Assembly: GCA_001574975.1 (NCBI GenBank)
Contig: KQ965733.1
Span: 871,012 to 935,011, forward strand
DNA: 64,000 bases
From: Gonapodya prolifera JEL478
Taxonomy: Eukaryota > Monoblepharomycota > Monoblepharidomycetes > Monoblepharidales > Gonapodyaceae
Reading direction: 5' to 3'
Position 1 is the stretch's first letter; every line of letters begins with the position of its first letter. The notes beneath the pieces were generated by a model. The model was not told the DNA's origin. It searched no databases and saw only the letters and a program-made list of their open reading frames with translations. Made by a program: the position numbers and the translations under genes. Shown here piece by piece: positions 39,801 to 46,250 of the stretch.

Positions 39801-40734
39801 GGGGGGATAAATGCAGGCACTAAGGAGTGTCCCGGTAGCTGGCGTGCCCATGACGGGACTTCCAGGGTGTTGGACTGTACCCGTTCCGCCCAGACGTTCT
39901 TGTGGCGTGCCACCAAGTTCCACAGCCCACGAACGCTCCTTAGCCCCACATCCGCCGAATATTTTGCAAAAGAGAAGAAAAAACCCCCGCTATAATCACG
40001 TTCAGACAGGCGAGGCGCGTTCTAGTATGCCAATGGCGGGACTCCAACACCAAACGATTCTCGTGGCGTGATTGAACGCTCTACACTCCCCCCGAACGTT
40101 CCTTGGCGTCGTATCCACCGGATATTTCGAAGCAGAGGTATGTAGCGTTATACTCGTCCCCGTTCACACAGGCGAGGCACCGTCTATGGCTCGGTTGGGT
40201 TGATGCCCACCCTACGCGAGTCCTTAACAAGGCGGCCACCTCAAGAAACCACCGGCCACCGAAGGCTCTGTACTTCCACACCGCACCTTTGCTCCACCTC
40301 CTCGCGTTTCCAGTATCTCCCTGGCTTGTTCTGTGAGGAAACCGTTCCGTCGACACATCCCAACCGCTTCCGCGTCCCGTCGCACCTGTCTTCCACAACG
40401 CTGCGCCCGAGTCGCGGCTTCCACACACCCCTTGCGCATTTCCGGCGGCGCACGCTGCTGCTCATTGTCCCACCCCTGACAACGCACCTTCGCACTCGGC
40501 GCAGTTGGTCCGTGGCCCGCTCGCCTCTGCCTGCGACATGTCCATCCTGTCGCCGTCCGTGTCCGCGTCTGTCATGCCGGACGTGGCATCGCCATCGCGC
40601 GACGAGTCCTCCTCCTCCGATGACAGGTCGGACACGCGGCCGTCGAGAATGTCTGCGAGTGTCGGCTGCGGGTGGTGGTTTGCGTCGGGTGCAGCATGTG
40701 GCGTGGTGTCGGGTGGCGAAGACGGGTCGGTCAT
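36822..40734 (-). CDS. B-box zinc-finger protein with DUF2009 domain
   Basis: Conserved eukaryotic protein of unknown molecular function. ATG at 40734 opens an acidic Ser-rich leader (MTDPSSPPDTTPHAAPDANH). CAECE is joined by a 757 bp intron (39731-40487) to DHPADLHCTDCDDLYCDVCF, then VSQHRKGKRALHRTT: a complete B-box-type set of Cys/His ligands. An acidic linker is followed by the DUF2009 domain: ERAKYIPLRLSLEERKYLRL, LRLLEAALLVSEYTDKVDVL, FADRDFAANETFYRSIFELG and RGTYGKLVYVLMDAQAPEVK. The 3' exons spliced by eye give NAFMFIDKYTQV, LDFFRHAFDGSGADNFF, AGSCIDGRLTSAWNWC and PVFLLTGFLGFDGKEGF, ending TAA at 36822-36824. All family blocks are present, so the copy looks functional. The position of the FADRDF block exon is inferred from the family order. 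Confidence 0.88.
39852..40182. repeat. Diverged tandem duplication inside intron 1 of the DUF2009 gene
   Basis: Two similar units: 39852-40020 and 40035-40182. Shared landmarks in the same order are a GCGGGACT/GACGGGACT start, TCTTGTGGCGTG/TCTCGTGGCGTG, CGAACGCTCCTTAGC/CGAACGTTCCTTGGC, CCGCCGAATATTT/CCACCGGATATTT, TATAATCACGTTCAGACAGG/TATACTCGTCCCCGTTCACA and CAGGCGAGGC. Identity is partial, so the duplication is old. Confidence 0.7.
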
Positions 40735-41217
40735 GGCAGACGCGTGCGTGAATGAATGGAACGCGAAATGCGATCTTTTTTTTGGTTCACATTTCTGGAT
40801 ACACAAATAATAAATGTGATACCACTTGTTTGGTGGAGGATGTCGGCGAGCCCTTGAGGGGCAAAGCCCACCACCAATTTTGCACTATTTTGTGTCCGCG
40901 CATCACAACCAACCCCCGCGTACTCTGCGAAGTCAATGTATCTGTCTGTTGACTCCCAGAACCCGTCCCACCCCAAACCATATCAGTTCCATGTTTCGTT
41001 TCGCACGGCATCCAAGTAGGGATTGGGCTTTCAGAGATGTTGAGGTTGGTCGGCATGTAAGGGACAAAAAATTAAGTCTCAGATGAAGGAGCAATAAAAA
41101 CACCGAGAGCGTGGAAAAGCGTTGCAGGTAGGTTGGCTGAGAAGAGATGTGGCTTGTTAAAGGTCTTTGTAATGTTTGTGCACTATGTTCGAGTCACTCA
41201 CATTCTTCCACGGAGCT
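40735..41217. other. Spacer between the DUF2009 promoter and the Fanzor 3' end
   Basis: About 480 bp. It holds the DUF2009 promoter and the region 3' of the Fanzor ORF, where a guide (omega) RNA would be expected in an intact element. No terminal inverted repeat was found by eye. Confidence 0.4.
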
Positions 41218-42642
41218 CTACCATGACCGCTCCGATTTGGGAGGAGGTCTATACCCTGGGGGACGGTGTCCAGTCGCTTGTTTGTACATGTAGACAAACA
41301 GAATATTCTGGACAACATTATGGTCCCTATTCCATGTTATGCATTCGTATGGACAGAACTTGAACCCCCAGGGACAAAGGGCTTTCTGCTTTGTGTTGGA
41401 CCCAACATTATTTGTGACCACTTTGGGGACGAGAAATCTGTGGCAAGAGCTGCAGAGCGCTGACGTATGGTACTCTTCAACTTCGTCGCACTGAAAAGGG
41501 ACTCGTTTGAAGAGAATTTTGTCGTTGTGGTTTGCAGTCACGCTCTTGTTATGTCCAGATTGTCCAATACAAGCAATCACATCTTTCATCTTCTTCATTG
41601 TTTCACGAAACTTTTTGTGGTGGCTAGCAGCGTAGCCACGTGTCGCTACACCGAACCGCGTGTTCCCAAAATGAACGTGAATTTTCGACAACTTTTGTTG
41701 AAAGTTATGTGGATTATCTGAGGTAAACTTGGCAAACAGGTCTCGGATGATCTCTTGGTGTTGTTTCTGCGCTCTCATGTAGGAGCGGAATCGCAGCTGA
41801 TGAAAAAAGTCTGCGTCGTAAAAATCAAGCAGGTTCTCAAACTCGGGCCCAATTGCTTTAAGGTATATTTTGAATTTTCCCAAAGAGGAGGTTTTCTTTG
41901 ACGGTAGAGTGGATTCAAATTGTGCCACCGTCTGCTTTGCATTAGGATTGTTTTGTTCACCAGCAAGACATGGCTTCGTAGGTGAAAGATCTCCTCACTC
42001 AATCTGTTGAACCCAACGATCCATGCGCAGCGGATTCCCCAGTTCAACATTTGTCTGAAGAGCATTGATATTCCATCACTTCAGGTTATAGCCGCAGCAT
42101 TGATACACTTCCTTTGTGGTGATTGAGATGACCACTTCTGCATTCTCATGAGAAACTTGCTTGCCACGCTCATTGACGTAGCACCAGTCTGCTCGAATGC
42201 TGTCACTCCGTGTCTCCTTCTTGGATGACACAGAAGTTGATGTACCCTGTGAGTACGATTTGCTCCTCTGTCCAAGACGCTCTTTGCAGATCCTGTCTGT
42301 GATATCCTTTTCTTTGCCAGAAAGTAGTTTAACCTGTATGTTTGGCTTCAGGGACATGGCCACAATTGGTCTTCCCTTATTTGGGTCCACATAAAATTGA
42401 TGAACACCTGTCTCATTGAAAGACTCTGCCAAGATGTTGTGTCTACGATCAAAAGCCCGCTTGTGTTGACTTGATTTCTCACAAATGTTGGGCATGCAGA
42501 ATGCTGACTGTGGGGATGCTTGACTTGGAAAATCAAATGATGGCTTTACAACAAGGGTTGAGGGAAGAGTTGGAGTAGCAGAAATCATGCCACTGCCTCC
42601 TGCCACTAAGGTTGGAAGAGATGATCTTAGATACAAAACCAA
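41218..42642 (-). CDS. Fanzor (TnpB-like RuvC nuclease) ORF with two in-frame TGA codons
   Basis: Two open segments, 42642-42076 and 41928-41218, lie in the same reading frame, and the 147 bases between them stay in that frame except for TGA codons at 42076-42078 and 41995-41997. RuvC-I: VHQFYVDPNKGRPIVAM, with the catalytic Asp in VDP. Middle block: STLPSKKTSSLGKFKIYLKA, typical of Fanzors. RuvC-II region: IHVHFGNTRFGVATRGY. Zinc ribbon and RuvC-III: DEVEEYHTSALCSSCHRF, then GFKFCPYECITWNRDHNVVQ, with all four Cys and the final Asp of the WNRD.N...NI motif. Tail: GHRPPGYRPPP. The family in TnpB-derived eukaryotic elements acts as an RNA-guided DNA nuclease. The N-terminal half is missing or in unseen exons: the frame is open up to a CCCAGTAG at about 42698, which could be a 3' splice site. 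The copy may be a decaying element. Confidence 0.82.
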
Positions 42643-42699
42643 CAGATACTGGAAGATTAAGTTTCTACCTCCACCTGGTTGATTTTGCTACTGGGAAAA

Positions 42700-43470
42700 G
42701 GATTTAAGAAGTGAAGAAGCAATGAACAATCAAAGCAGCCACCAGGTTTTTACGTTCACATCTTGACAATGTATATTAGAGTGCCGAATTTATCATTGAC
42801 CTTAACCTCATCTCTTGGACAATTGTGGTGCAAAGAAGTTAGACGATACACAGATCCTCGTTCTCATGGTGGCGCGATTTTCTTCCTCCGCTTCCTCCGC
42901 CTCTGGACTCGGATACGCTCGAGTGGTGAACCGCGGAAAGGCTGGTCAGGCGACCTTTTTCTGGCGAAGCAGGGGTCAACAGAAAAAAAAAGGGGCAGTG
43001 ATGTAAATGGTGAAATGGTGTGCTTGATTCCAGACGAACGGTACCCCAATGCAGTAAAAGAAAATGGATTGCCGCTCGGCTCTACCAGAGAGCTTCATTT
43101 CCGCTCGCTCCTTGAAAGTTGAAACCTCATCATGCTCGAACGAATCTCAAACCATACATTTAATTGTTCTCTGCTTTGCAATCGCTGAAGTACTTCCTGG
43201 GCCAAACCAATTGCATGATGTACCACACCTCCTAAGCGGCGACGGTTGTACGAATATCTTTGTTTTTTCTTTTATTCGTCTTGTTGGCTGGGTTCTTCGT
43301 TCCCCGCTTATCGAGACTCGTGAGACAAAAGAGATGCAGCGGGAAACAAAGAATTTTCTTCTTCTGAGCTGCGGACGTTTGCATTCGAATACAGCATACA
43401 CAGCGGCCGCCTAACCTCTAAGATCTTCTTCCGAGCCCGTACGCACCATGCACCGTCATACACCACACTC
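42700..43470. other. Region upstream of the Fanzor ORF, no assigned gene
   Basis: Small ORFs on + (from about 42770 MYIRVPNLSLTLTSSLGQLW; from 42815 MDNCGAKKLDDTQ) and on - have no recognised features. Missing 5' exons of the Fanzor or an adjacent transposon end could lie here. Confidence 0.35.
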
Positions 43471-44995
43471 CTACTTTTTCCGGCCCCTATATCCTGCTCC
43501 TGCACCCGCCGCCTTCTTCTTCCCAACCTAAAACCAACCACACTCGTTCAGCTCCACTCTCACCCTCCAAAAAACCCAAGGCGCGGCGCATCACATCCCC
43601 GTGCTCACCTCGTTCGGCTTTCTCTTCTTGCGGGGTCTCGCCGACTCCTCCTCCTGCTCTTCCTCTTCATGCTCATCCTCCTCTTCCTCGTCTTGCTTGT
43701 CATCTTCCTCTTCGTCACCCTCCGCCTCCCCGTCCTCTTCACGTCCGCGACCTCCCTTGCGACCAGGCCTTGAAGCCCCGAGCTGCGTCGCGGCCTTGAG
43801 CGTCCCTATGCGTAGGTGGGTGGGTGTGGTGCGGTATGGTGCGGTGTGGTGCGGTGTGGTTCATGTGAGGTCCCAACCGCTCAAGCTCATGCGCCGACTC
43901 GCCGACTCGCCAACTCGAGGGTCAAGACAACAAAAAAACAAACTCACGGGTCACAACACTGCCAACCTCCTTCTCAAACGCCACGTCGGCCTTCTTCAGC
44001 TCACTGCAGAGCCGGGAGAGCTCTGCCACGAGGGTGTCGTGCTGCGTCTGGTGCCCGTCGGGTTCGGGTTCGGGTTCGGGTTCGGGGTCGGGGTCGGGGT
44101 CGTGAGGCGAGAGAGGGGGGAACGGGACGCGGACGTGTGTATAAGTTCACATTCTGCACTCGCACTCTCGCCTGGCACCAGCACCAGCACTAGCGGCGGA
44201 GTCACGCACCTTGTACTTTGCCTGATCCGCAGCGAGTCTCTTCCCGATGGCCGCTCTGTAAACACCGAGACACCGAACCCCCGTGCCAGGTGCCAGTTGC
44301 CAATAAAGGGCTGACGTCACGACCTTGCTCACACACGCACGGACTCGACTGGGGATGCTTACCGTTCTTCCAAGCACTCCTCGCACTAATCATCGGGCAG
44401 ATTTGTTGGGTAGCGTTAGAGCCACCATCCCGCTGCGTGCAGAGTGGAACCGTGCAAACCGAACCCACCTTCTTCCACTGCCCGCCCACCAAACTCTCCA
44501 GCTCGGCTTTGTGCCCCGCCAGAAGCTCCACGACGGCCGCGTCGTAATTTACGAGCATTTCTGGTCCGGGGTTTTTCCCAGGCGAAACGGAACGGGCGAG
44601 ACGGATGATGATTATGTCAGCCTCCAAGTCTGCACTGTCATTCGCGCTTCGCGCAGGATCATTTGCCTCCGGCGGACTCCTCGATTCCGGCGGAAGAATG
44701 CGCTACGCATGTGACATTCGCGCTTCGCGAAAGGATCACTCGCCCCTGCACGAACCGTCACACTCCTCCTGCACGCGGCGCACACGGCCAGCTTCCTGCC
44801 TCTGCACGCGGGTCTGCAGCGCGGCGAGGATCCCAGTGACGTCTTGGGAGTCGCTGTGGGTGGCGGGATGGCAGCGTGGAGAGGGTCGGGTGGGAAGGGG
44901 CAGGACGAAAAAGAGGCGGGGTTGGATGATGGTGAGGAGGGAGGACGAAGGCGAGGACGTGGGACGGAGGGGAGACGGACGTACCCTCGGTCCAT
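43471..44995 (-). CDS. Coiled-coil protein with acidic and basic nuclear-type tail
   Basis: Not recognised. Splicing by eye from ATG 44995: MDRGDSQDVTGILAALQTRV, QRQEAGRVRRVQEECDDLEA, DIIIIRLARSVSPGKN, then GHKAELESLVGGQWKK. These join CEECLEER, AAIGKRLAADQAKYK and DTLVAELSRLCSELKKADVA, then FEKE. A long acidic run (EEDEHEEEEQEEE) with basic PRKKRKPNE follows, and a last intron adds VGKKKAAGAGAGYRGRKK and TAG at 43471-43473. About seven exons are small and each junction used keeps frame. A predicted coiled coil plus an acidic patch and two basic clusters suggests a nuclear structural or chromatin-associated factor; that is inference. Several introns contain simple repeats. Confidence 0.6.
43824..43862. 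repeat. GGTGC/GGTGT simple repeat in an intron
   Basis: Alternating GTGGTGCG and TATGGTGCG-type units in the intron after the KEG exon of the acidic coiled-coil gene. Confidence 0.85.
44059..44102. repeat. GGGTTC/GGGGTC hexanucleotide repeat in an intron
   Basis: Four GGGTTC units then three GGGGTC units in the intron preceding the DTLVAELS exon. Such blocks of one unit followed by a variant suggest slippage. Confidence 0.9.
44639..44737. repeat. Direct repeat of about 23 bp within an intron
   Basis: CATTCGCGCTTCGCG followed by CAGGATCA at 44639-44660 recurs as CATTCGCGCTTCGCG followed by AAAGGATCA at 44715-44737. The core TTCGCGCTTCGCG is near-palindromic. The copies flank a GC-rich stretch that itself has a CCGGCGGA duplication. 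Confidence 0.8.
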
Positions 44996-45590
44996 GGTGT
45001 GTGTGGTATGTGTGGTGTTTGAATGACGACTTGGTTTGGTTTTGGGGTGACTGAGTGCGTGCGCAAAACAACATTACTTTATGCCGCATGCATATTCGCC
45101 AACCTGAATATTTTTGTTCAAGAAACAAGCAAAATGTTGTACGAGTATTTGCTCTGTATTCAACCAGTGTTAGTGTCGCAAGATAGACAGCGGTCTGGTA
45201 TTGATATTGGGAGTCTCGGGACTGGAACCTCAATCACGGACTAGGAGGAGAGCACAGGACGGTGTTAGAGACAAGGCATGGAAGTGGATGTTCGGACTCT
45301 GATACATATGCTCCACCCCAGCCTCACTGTTTGGCAATTGGGCTGCCGGTCTGGCATTGGTTATTGGGTGTCTGGGACAGGGACGGAGCACCGTCGTGAC
45401 CGTCCTCCTCATGGGGTGCTCTGGGCAGCGTCACTGTTTTGTGTCGTCGGCGAACGGGTCACGTTAGTTAGGCGGCGGCAGAGGAAGAAGTGTAGATGGC
45501 AAAACACTGATGTTCTCCACACTCGTTACCATTCACTTTGAGCGTCTGACACATGACAAAGAAGAAAGAAGGAAGGTAACAATAATTGGC
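44996..45590. other. Intergenic region, no gene seen
   Basis: About 600 bp. Only short ORFs with no features. It contains the promoter of the acidic coiled-coil gene. Confidence 0.5.
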
Positions 45591-45596
45591 AGTTAT

Positions 45597-46250
45597 TCAT
45601 TGCTTTCTGCCTCTCCGCTCAATGTGCTCATGTAAATCATGCTCAACACCGACTCGAAGAGTGTACCAACGGCAGCACGGCAAGGGAAAGTCAGTCTTGC
45701 CTTTCTCCATGATGCATTTACTTGTCTCGTATTCAAAAATGATTCTTTCACTTCTCCGCCATATCATATAGGACAATTTTACACCCGGCGACAACCTTTG
45801 TTACTTCAGCCGAAGATTTCGAGTTCCTCGAAGCATCCACGGGAGCTTCTCATCAGCAACTATTCATAGCTAATAGGGCGGAACCCGACGGACTTTATCT
45901 GAAAACAAGTACTTTCACCGGTGCTCCACCAATGTGACGTTGAATGAATTAAACTTGGATGCCATCGTCATCTTATCAAATCAGCTGCCCGACTGGTTTG
46001 TGCGCAACACCACTATACTTTTATTATGCCGCACCGAATATTCATTTCATTCAAGAACCAAGCATACCGTTGGAAAGATGGCCATTCTGTACCCAAACAT
46101 TTGTAGTTCACGTCGCGCAGATGGCCAGCGTCGTCGGTTCCCATGCCGAGTACATGCGCGAATAATGAATTCAATTCTATTCTGAGCGAGTTCATTTGTG
46201 GGATCAATAATTGTTGGATTCGCTCATCACGAGTTTCGGGAAGTGACCGC
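45597..46250 (-). CDS. Unidentified exon pair, possible orphan or element-derived gene
   Basis: Two unusually protein-like minus-strand stretches. The upstream one (about 46250-46065) reads RDERIQQLLIPQMNSLRIEL, NSLFAHVLGMGTDDAGHLRD and VNYKCLGTEWPSFQR, then a GTATGC donor. The downstream one (about 45780-45597) reads LSYMIWRRSERIIFEYETSK, CIMEKGKTDFPLPCCRWYTL and RVGVEHDLHEHIERRGRKQ, then TGA. The intron between is about 290 bp and its acceptor was not fixed. No family comes to mind. Base composition (about half AT) differs sharply from the GC-rich Arf-GEF exon next door. Where the gene starts is unclear; upstream frames run into the antisense of the Arf-GEF. It could be a truncated gene or a transposon remnant. 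Confidence 0.35.

Follow-up and report, generated by a model that had tools for sequence, protein, structure and literature searches.

A 5′-truncated, CpG-decayed Fanzor1 copy with two in-frame TGA codons in Gonapodya prolifera JEL478, very probably a dead relic

The DNA analysed here is a 64,000-nucleotide stretch of the Gonapodya prolifera JEL478 genome (the window), and it carries on its minus strand a Fanzor1-type frame interrupted by two TGA codons. We conclude that this copy is very probably a dead relic, truncated at its 5′ end and decayed at its CpG sites, of a Fanzor1 subfamily that proliferated in the genome in the past. The family is already known and the copy is an ordinary one. 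Its interest lies in illustrating one way for Fanzor copies to die where a genome is under CpG mutation pressure, and it carries a warning that runs of in-frame TGA in CpG-decayed relics mimic recoding.

The frame occupies 41218–42687 of the minus strand and comprises 489 codons from stop to stop, with its first ATG at 42588. Direct reading places it between an upstream TAG (42690–42688) and a terminal TAG (41220–41218), and confirms a preliminary description of this DNA, which had proposed a single minus-strand frame broken only by two TGAs and by no frameshift. The TGAs lie at residue 204 (42076–42078, minus strand) and residue 231 (41995–41997, minus strand). The family blocks named in that description are present in order, with no frameshift between them: DPNK from D101 (42387), LPSKKT (41907), HFGN (41673), CSSC from C412 (41454) and NRDHN with D455 (41325). 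The RuvC-I Asp, D101 in DPNK (42385–42387), is also Asp in the related loci L002 and L007 and is lost in the relics L003 and L004. The displaced RuvC-II Glu, E405 (41473–41475), stands six residues ahead of the first zinc Cys, and the RuvC-III Asp is D455 in NRDHN (41323–41325), all on the minus strand. With D101-P-N103, E405-x6-C412 and R454-D455 in frame, the catalytic set is present; a failure of the catalytic Asp and Glu positions to align had been named in advance as grounds for rejecting the assignment, and all three are in place. The zinc-ribbon region (41341–41454, minus strand) had been described as an intact C4 ribbon, and here the description has to be corrected. C412 and C415 are followed by a second pair, C445-PYE-C449, that is CxxxC and thus one residue wider than CxxC. 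The fourth Cys is also absent from most copies: in ten other copies of the subfamily its position is filled by Glu or Lys in seven (L001–L006 and L008), by His in L010 and by Cys in L007 and L009. A CxxC second pair is kept in the last two, and in L008 the Cys falls, as in the window, one position later. A single-sequence structure prediction from the first ATG was meaningless (pLDDT 32).

The frame had been called Fanzor-type, and the displaced Glu, at least ten paralogous loci and a profile built from this genome all support that assignment and narrow it to Fanzor1. The search against Fanzor/TnpB profiles that had been suggested succeeded with the genome's own sequences and fell short with the public family. 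A profile of Fanzor1-like frames (L018, L021, L016 and the minus-strand frame of L011) scored 53.0 bits against the C-terminal part of the window frame (E=1.2e-17 in a set of ten proteins). PF07282 (Cas12f1-like TNB) stayed below its cut-off, both for the C-terminal part (E=0.0012, 19.4 of the required 26.3 bits) and for the whole frame (E=0.0073, with a restriction-enzyme family also at E=0.03), and the window copy is absent from the 20 genome matches to PF07282. A profile of the IS607-linked Fanzor2-like frames of L011 and L012 gave −3.2 bits against the C-terminal part. In the reverse direction, a profile of the window subfamily scored 23–34 bits on these four Fanzor1-like frames and 1.1 and −3.7 bits on the two Fanzor2-like ones. 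By these profiles, which were built within this genome only and for which loci were labelled Fanzor1 or Fanzor2 from motifs and the resolvase, the window frame appears closer to Fanzor1 than to IS607-linked Fanzor2.

Among PDB sequences, at E up to 0.1, the sole match of the C-terminal part was SpuFz1, with E=0.004 for the whole sequence; the match consists of two stretches, the ES.LPS.KT block and EYxTSxxC, that are singly non-significant (E 1.9 and 77). A CD4 fragment that appears at E up to 1 (E=0.21 with the window C-terminus) was taken as chance. L018 had no match among PDB sequences at E up to 0.01, and no matches were found in phage records with the window C-terminus or L021, or when the window C-terminus was scanned against viral contigs. 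SpuFz1 is reported to bind Mg through D383, N385, E541 and D606 (PMC10432273), and the RuvC-II Glu of Fanzors is described as sitting six residues ahead of the zinc finger (Ealt; PMC10711439). The window frame has this arrangement in E405-x6-C412, and the SpuFz1 chain aligns here through its DEYKTSSVC block, whose Glu we infer to be E541 given the length of the fusion. The window copy resembles SpuFz1 (Spizellomyces punctatus, PDB 8gkh) in its displaced Glu, its D-x-N at RuvC-I and its ES.LPS.KT and EYxTSxxC blocks, but differs in its missing N-terminal half, its long insertions in the RuvC region, its non-canonical second zinc pair and its two stops. It likewise shares the RuvC, ExxTSxxCxxC and WNRD blocks with the Fanzor1-like L018, L021 and L016 of the same genome, whereas those three carry N-terminal CxxC..H..C knuckles and canonical CxxC pairs.

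Two published signatures further define the copy. The Fanzor/TnpB motif D-X(125,275)-[TS]-[TS]-X-X-[C4 zinc finger]-X(5,50)-RD (PMC3627910) is matched in block order (D101, T408 S409, C412xxC415, R454 D455) but not in full, as 306 residues separate D101 from the TS pair, more than the limit of 275, and the second zinc pair has the form CxxxC. On this spacing and zinc pair we class the copy not as a working member of the family but as a degenerate relic, related to it by common descent. A DPG at RuvC-I, described as near exclusive to Fanzors (PMC10711439), is replaced by DPN in the window. Because L018 and L021 likewise have DPN, and SpuFz1 uses D383 and N385, the missing DPG alone is no ground for exclusion from Fanzor1.

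The read-through frame matches at least ten other loci in the genome (L001–L010) in at least 20 matched stretches, with 25–66% identity outside its own match. At the DNA level only L008 (C8), among the matches listed, is a close copy, 90% identical over 589 aligned columns (window 41380–40796). In-frame stops, mostly TGA, occur in eight of the ten other copies. Counting the window copy, the stretches of the subfamily that match contain 27 TGA, 6 TAG and 5 TAA in 9 of 11 loci; this tally includes segments of L003, L006 and L008 that are inserted or not in frame, and an L009 TGA situated in an apparent intron. L003, with 15 stops within its match, is itself a relic. L007 (C12:462549–463636) and L009 (C7:219406–220526) are related to the window family, and both have normal CpG and high GC. 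By eye each has one apparent frameshift and L009 seems to hold several short GT..AG introns; the two may be host-adapted Fanzor genes or later pseudogenes.

A search with the window protein left L018 and L021 (Fanzor1-like) and L011 and L012 (Fanzor2-like) all unmatched; these four loci are among the 20 genome matches to PF07282. The proposal to look for intact copies elsewhere nevertheless proved fruitful among distant relatives. L018:1743–3182 and L021:1482–2858 (minus) are stop-free Fanzor1-like frames of 480 and 459 amino acids with N-terminal zinc-knuckle sequence upstream, and they are better candidates for active enzymes than the window copy.

Relative to its paralogs, the window copy is truncated at its 5′ end. 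The N-terminal half of a Fanzor contains the WED and REC regions, which serve the guide RNA and the target DNA. Only about 100 residues precede the first catalytic Asp in the window copy, versus 382 in SpuFz1, an absence that was overlooked in the first reading of the sequence. L002 and L003 have an upstream block in common (33% identity over 79 residues) with a weak counterpart in L009 (E 0.013 and 0.005), and this block has no match at E 0.001 in window 42401–46000. When three paralog N-terminal blocks were compared in three frames with window 42640–43400, all nine comparisons gave P between 0.14 and 0.88, and the best score was 31, against 56–139 among the blocks themselves. When the L002 block is compared with the entire window, its best match (E=0.031) falls not upstream but on the zinc-ribbon stretch, 41370–41266. 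The N-terminal zinc knuckle of L016, L018 and L021 is absent from window 40000–46000; a loose form of the pattern also matches L002, L007 and L025, which was taken as chance. With no WED/REC half found upstream of the frame, we class the copy as a truncated relic and not as a full Fanzor1, and the loss would make function as a guide-RNA nuclease unlikely even on that ground alone.

The frame is also depleted in CpG. It has 44 CpGs where 74 are expected (observed/expected 0.59) and a TpG/CpA ratio of 1.36, against a background CpG ratio of 0.89–1.05 in all 16 of the 4-kb tiles of the window. The core regions of eight of the ten paralogs have ratios of 0.10–0.75, and those of L007 and L009 have 1.04 and 1.16. 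Transitions are 5–12 times commoner at CpG sites in each of the five near pairs chosen. Between the window copy and L008 they affect 20 of 44 CpG sites versus 21 of 533 sites elsewhere (P=4e-14), and the same holds for L002/L001 (43/98 versus 45/942), L004/L003 (30/99 versus 85/1338), L005/L003 (24/75 versus 28/639) and L005/L006 (18/64 versus 22/519). Over 53 codons the window copy and L008 differ by 4 synonymous and 16 nonsynonymous or nonsense steps (pN/pS 1.01), and they are 88% identical in coding sequence (143/163) and 91% in 3′ noncoding sequence (385/422). Change within this nearest pair is thus neutral. At all 17 places where one of the two has CG and the other TG/CA, it is the window copy that carries CG, so the neutral ratio may reflect mostly the L008 branch.

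Methylation followed by deamination is a plausible cause of the CpG loss. The genome has a C5 DNA-methylase gene at C14 (L027) with two BAH matches below cut-off, and BAH-bearing DNMT1/Masc2 enzymes have been tied to CG methylation in fungi (PMC7862722). CpG depletion is not special to Fanzor, since L013 and L017, where Ty3/Gypsy-like integrase frames (which we take to be of Gypsy type) lie beside PF07282 matches, are CpG-poor overall as well (0.44 and 0.47). No Fanzor title or abstract opening among those listed deals with CpG decay of such copies, though this does not prove that no such work exists.

The identity of the stops is consistent with this route. CpG transitions from the sense codons of the frame can reach a stop in four ways, all of them TGA; all single changes from the same codons include 210 that make a stop, 56 of them TGA. 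At residue 204 the paralogs have AGG (L003, L004 and L009), CAG (L002) and GCG (L007), with the AGG of L003 resting on its DNA alignment with L004, where the tblastn output gives TGT. At residue 231 they have CGC (L009), CAT (L002 and L004), TGC (L003) and TCT (L007). Eight of these ten facing codons, from five paralogs and two places, are Arg or CpG products of Arg and one is Cys; as residues they read four Arg, one Cys, then Gln, His, His, Ala and Ser. Residue 231 fits the CpG route well because CGC, CAT and TGC are products of Arg CGN under CpG decay. The fit at residue 204 is less strict: three of the five paralogs have AGG opposite the TGA, and a plain CGA-to-TGA change starting from the commonest relative does not account for this stop. 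Among near copies, the codon facing another copy's TGA is most often CGA (7 pairings), then GGA (6), with AGA, TGG and others also seen, which indicates that stops have other sources besides CpG change, although the latter is the main one. Some TGAs are common to copies, at residue 389 in L001 and L002 and at residue 315 in L003, L005 and L006; these could stem from an ancestral copy that was already broken, or from the same CpG being hit more than once. For contrast, 41 Cpn60/TCP1 matches contain 9 TGA, 12 TAG and 5 TAA, versus 29 TGA, 6 TAG and 2 TAA in the Fanzor search, a rough comparison in which the Cpn60/TCP1 stops are assumed to lie in introns.

The history of the copy may be sketched as follows. 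A full-length ancestral Fanzor1, with the N-terminal block, a RuvC domain with the alternative Glu, a zinc ribbon and a conserved GHRPPGYRPPP tail, would have given rise to the copies, and the one in the window would have come to lack the N-terminal half. After insertion it would have lost CpG, most likely through deamination of 5-methylcytosine, and conversion of Arg CGN-type codons to TGA by deamination would be the likeliest source of both stops. The copy presumably yields no protein. Nonsense decay had been one of three options offered for the frame, and it is the one that truncation, CpG deficit and CpG-biased transitions favour. Against it counts the preservation of the copy, which, with only two stops, no frameshift in 489 codons and an intact D-E-D triad, is superior to that of the other CpG-poor copies.

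In Spizellomyces, ghost loci that make a working omega RNA have been reported (PMC10432273), and the 3′ noncoding part of the window element (40796–41217, minus strand), where similarity to L008 ends at 40796, might similarly supply omega RNA in trans to intact Fanzor1 proteins, with CpG-mutated copies acting as guide donors. We regard this as very unlikely. Stop-free Fanzor1-like frames do exist to be supplied, in L018 and L021, but these are distant, the C-terminal alignment showing 20 and 21% identity. Folding is better than in shuffled sequence for the last 100 nt (z −2.53, 1/200) and for 90 nt across the element end (z −2.03, 5/200), yet the L008 equivalent of the last 100 nt is not clear (z −1.14), stretches of 150 nt give z −0.85 and −0.64, and the preceding 150 nt give z +1.30. 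Moreover, the 3′ identity of 91% with L008 is hardly above the 88% of the coding part, and L008 is the only other copy of the 3′ part at the DNA level among the matches listed. The Spizellomyces partial copies and ghost elements described in PMC10432273 are alike in that degraded copies stand beside full ones in one genome; in the window, by contrast, no terminal inverted repeats were found and the omega RNA is only a candidate from folding. The suggested look for transposon ends gave no convincing inverted terminal pair in 40500–43500 and a direct repeat at chance level. The latter is an 8-base repeat, ATGTGAAC, around 40793–42753 (candidate 5′ flank 42754–42761 and 3′ flank 40785–40792, minus strand, both weak); it occurs at 3 places in the 64-kb window versus 2.68 expected by chance, so that a target-site duplication is possible but weak. 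In three other copies tried, L001, L005 and L008, there is no target-site duplication of at least 8 identical bases.

It is extremely unlikely that the TGAs are decoded, by selenocysteine insertion or by stop-codon readthrough, to give a full protein. The organism probably does decode UGA as selenocysteine, given two tRNA-Sec genes with anticodon TCA (L029:109–195, C24, and L030:106–192, C49; 74 and 72.9 bits). Mariotti et al. 2019, as recounted in PMC7988114, found Sec machinery in nine fungal species including Gonapodya prolifera; PMC7988114 itself reports no Sec in fungal proteomes. The frame stays open with its catalytic residues, some TGAs recur at the same place in other copies or nearly so (that of L004 at residue 205 adjoins the window's 204), and a Cys (TGC) faces residue 231 in L003. 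However, Cys accounts for only one of the ten codons facing the TGAs, and that in a relic, which is not the UGA–Cys pairing of selenoproteins. Furthermore, TGA terminates the intact ORFs of L011 and L021, residue 315, a TGA in three copies, is CGA in the window, and TAG and TAA occur among the copies too. No SECIS was found in 40300–43600, a weak point as the best score genome-wide was 28 of 35 bits and none reached the cut-off. The N-terminal half is missing however TGA is read. Readthrough, another of the three options, is thus opposed by TGAs that end intact ORFs, face mostly Arg-type codons and go with the CpG-decay signature.

The remaining option, an in-frame intron at about 42110–41940 that splices out both TGAs, is exceedingly improbable: its length is a multiple of three, related L009 seems by eye to have short GT..AG introns and L004 likewise has a TGA within the stretch (residue 205), but the stretch (41940–42110, minus strand, residues 193–249) is conserved as coding in four paralogs and so is not an intron. 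Codon by codon, identical residues number 24/57 in L002, 15/56 in L004, 13/57 in L009 and 11/57 in L007, with differences that favour the third codon position in the first three and not clearly in L007. Splicing would delete a family-conserved block, TTKEVYQxxG, related to EYYHxxG in L018, L021, L011 and L024. L002, L007 and L009 read through the stretch, leaving the L004 TGA as the exception among the four, and in L009 it forms one open exon with apparent GT..AG introns on both sides.

The stop-free Fanzor1-like L018 and L021, together with L011 and L012, are useful leads elsewhere in the genome. In the latter two, Fanzor2-like frames (L011:2833–5109 and L012:1326–3230; 759 and 635 amino acids, PF07282 above cut-off) overlap frames for an IS607-type MerR-resolvase, TnpA (L011:2880–3614 and L012:1262–1987), with no stops in either overlapping frame. 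Dual coding of TnpA and Fanzor2 received no clear support, with 0 stops in the alternate frame versus 1.2 and 2.2 in synonymous shuffles (P 0.21 and 0.047). L011 and L012 are apparently intact IS607-type elements in a eukaryote. Finally, a MITE-like 240-bp repeat, present in both orientations, is found within or close to three Fanzor copies, at L003:1703–1942, L006:1607–1848 and 2367–2611, and L008:1840–2071 and 2319–2558 (coordinates turned to the Fanzor strand).
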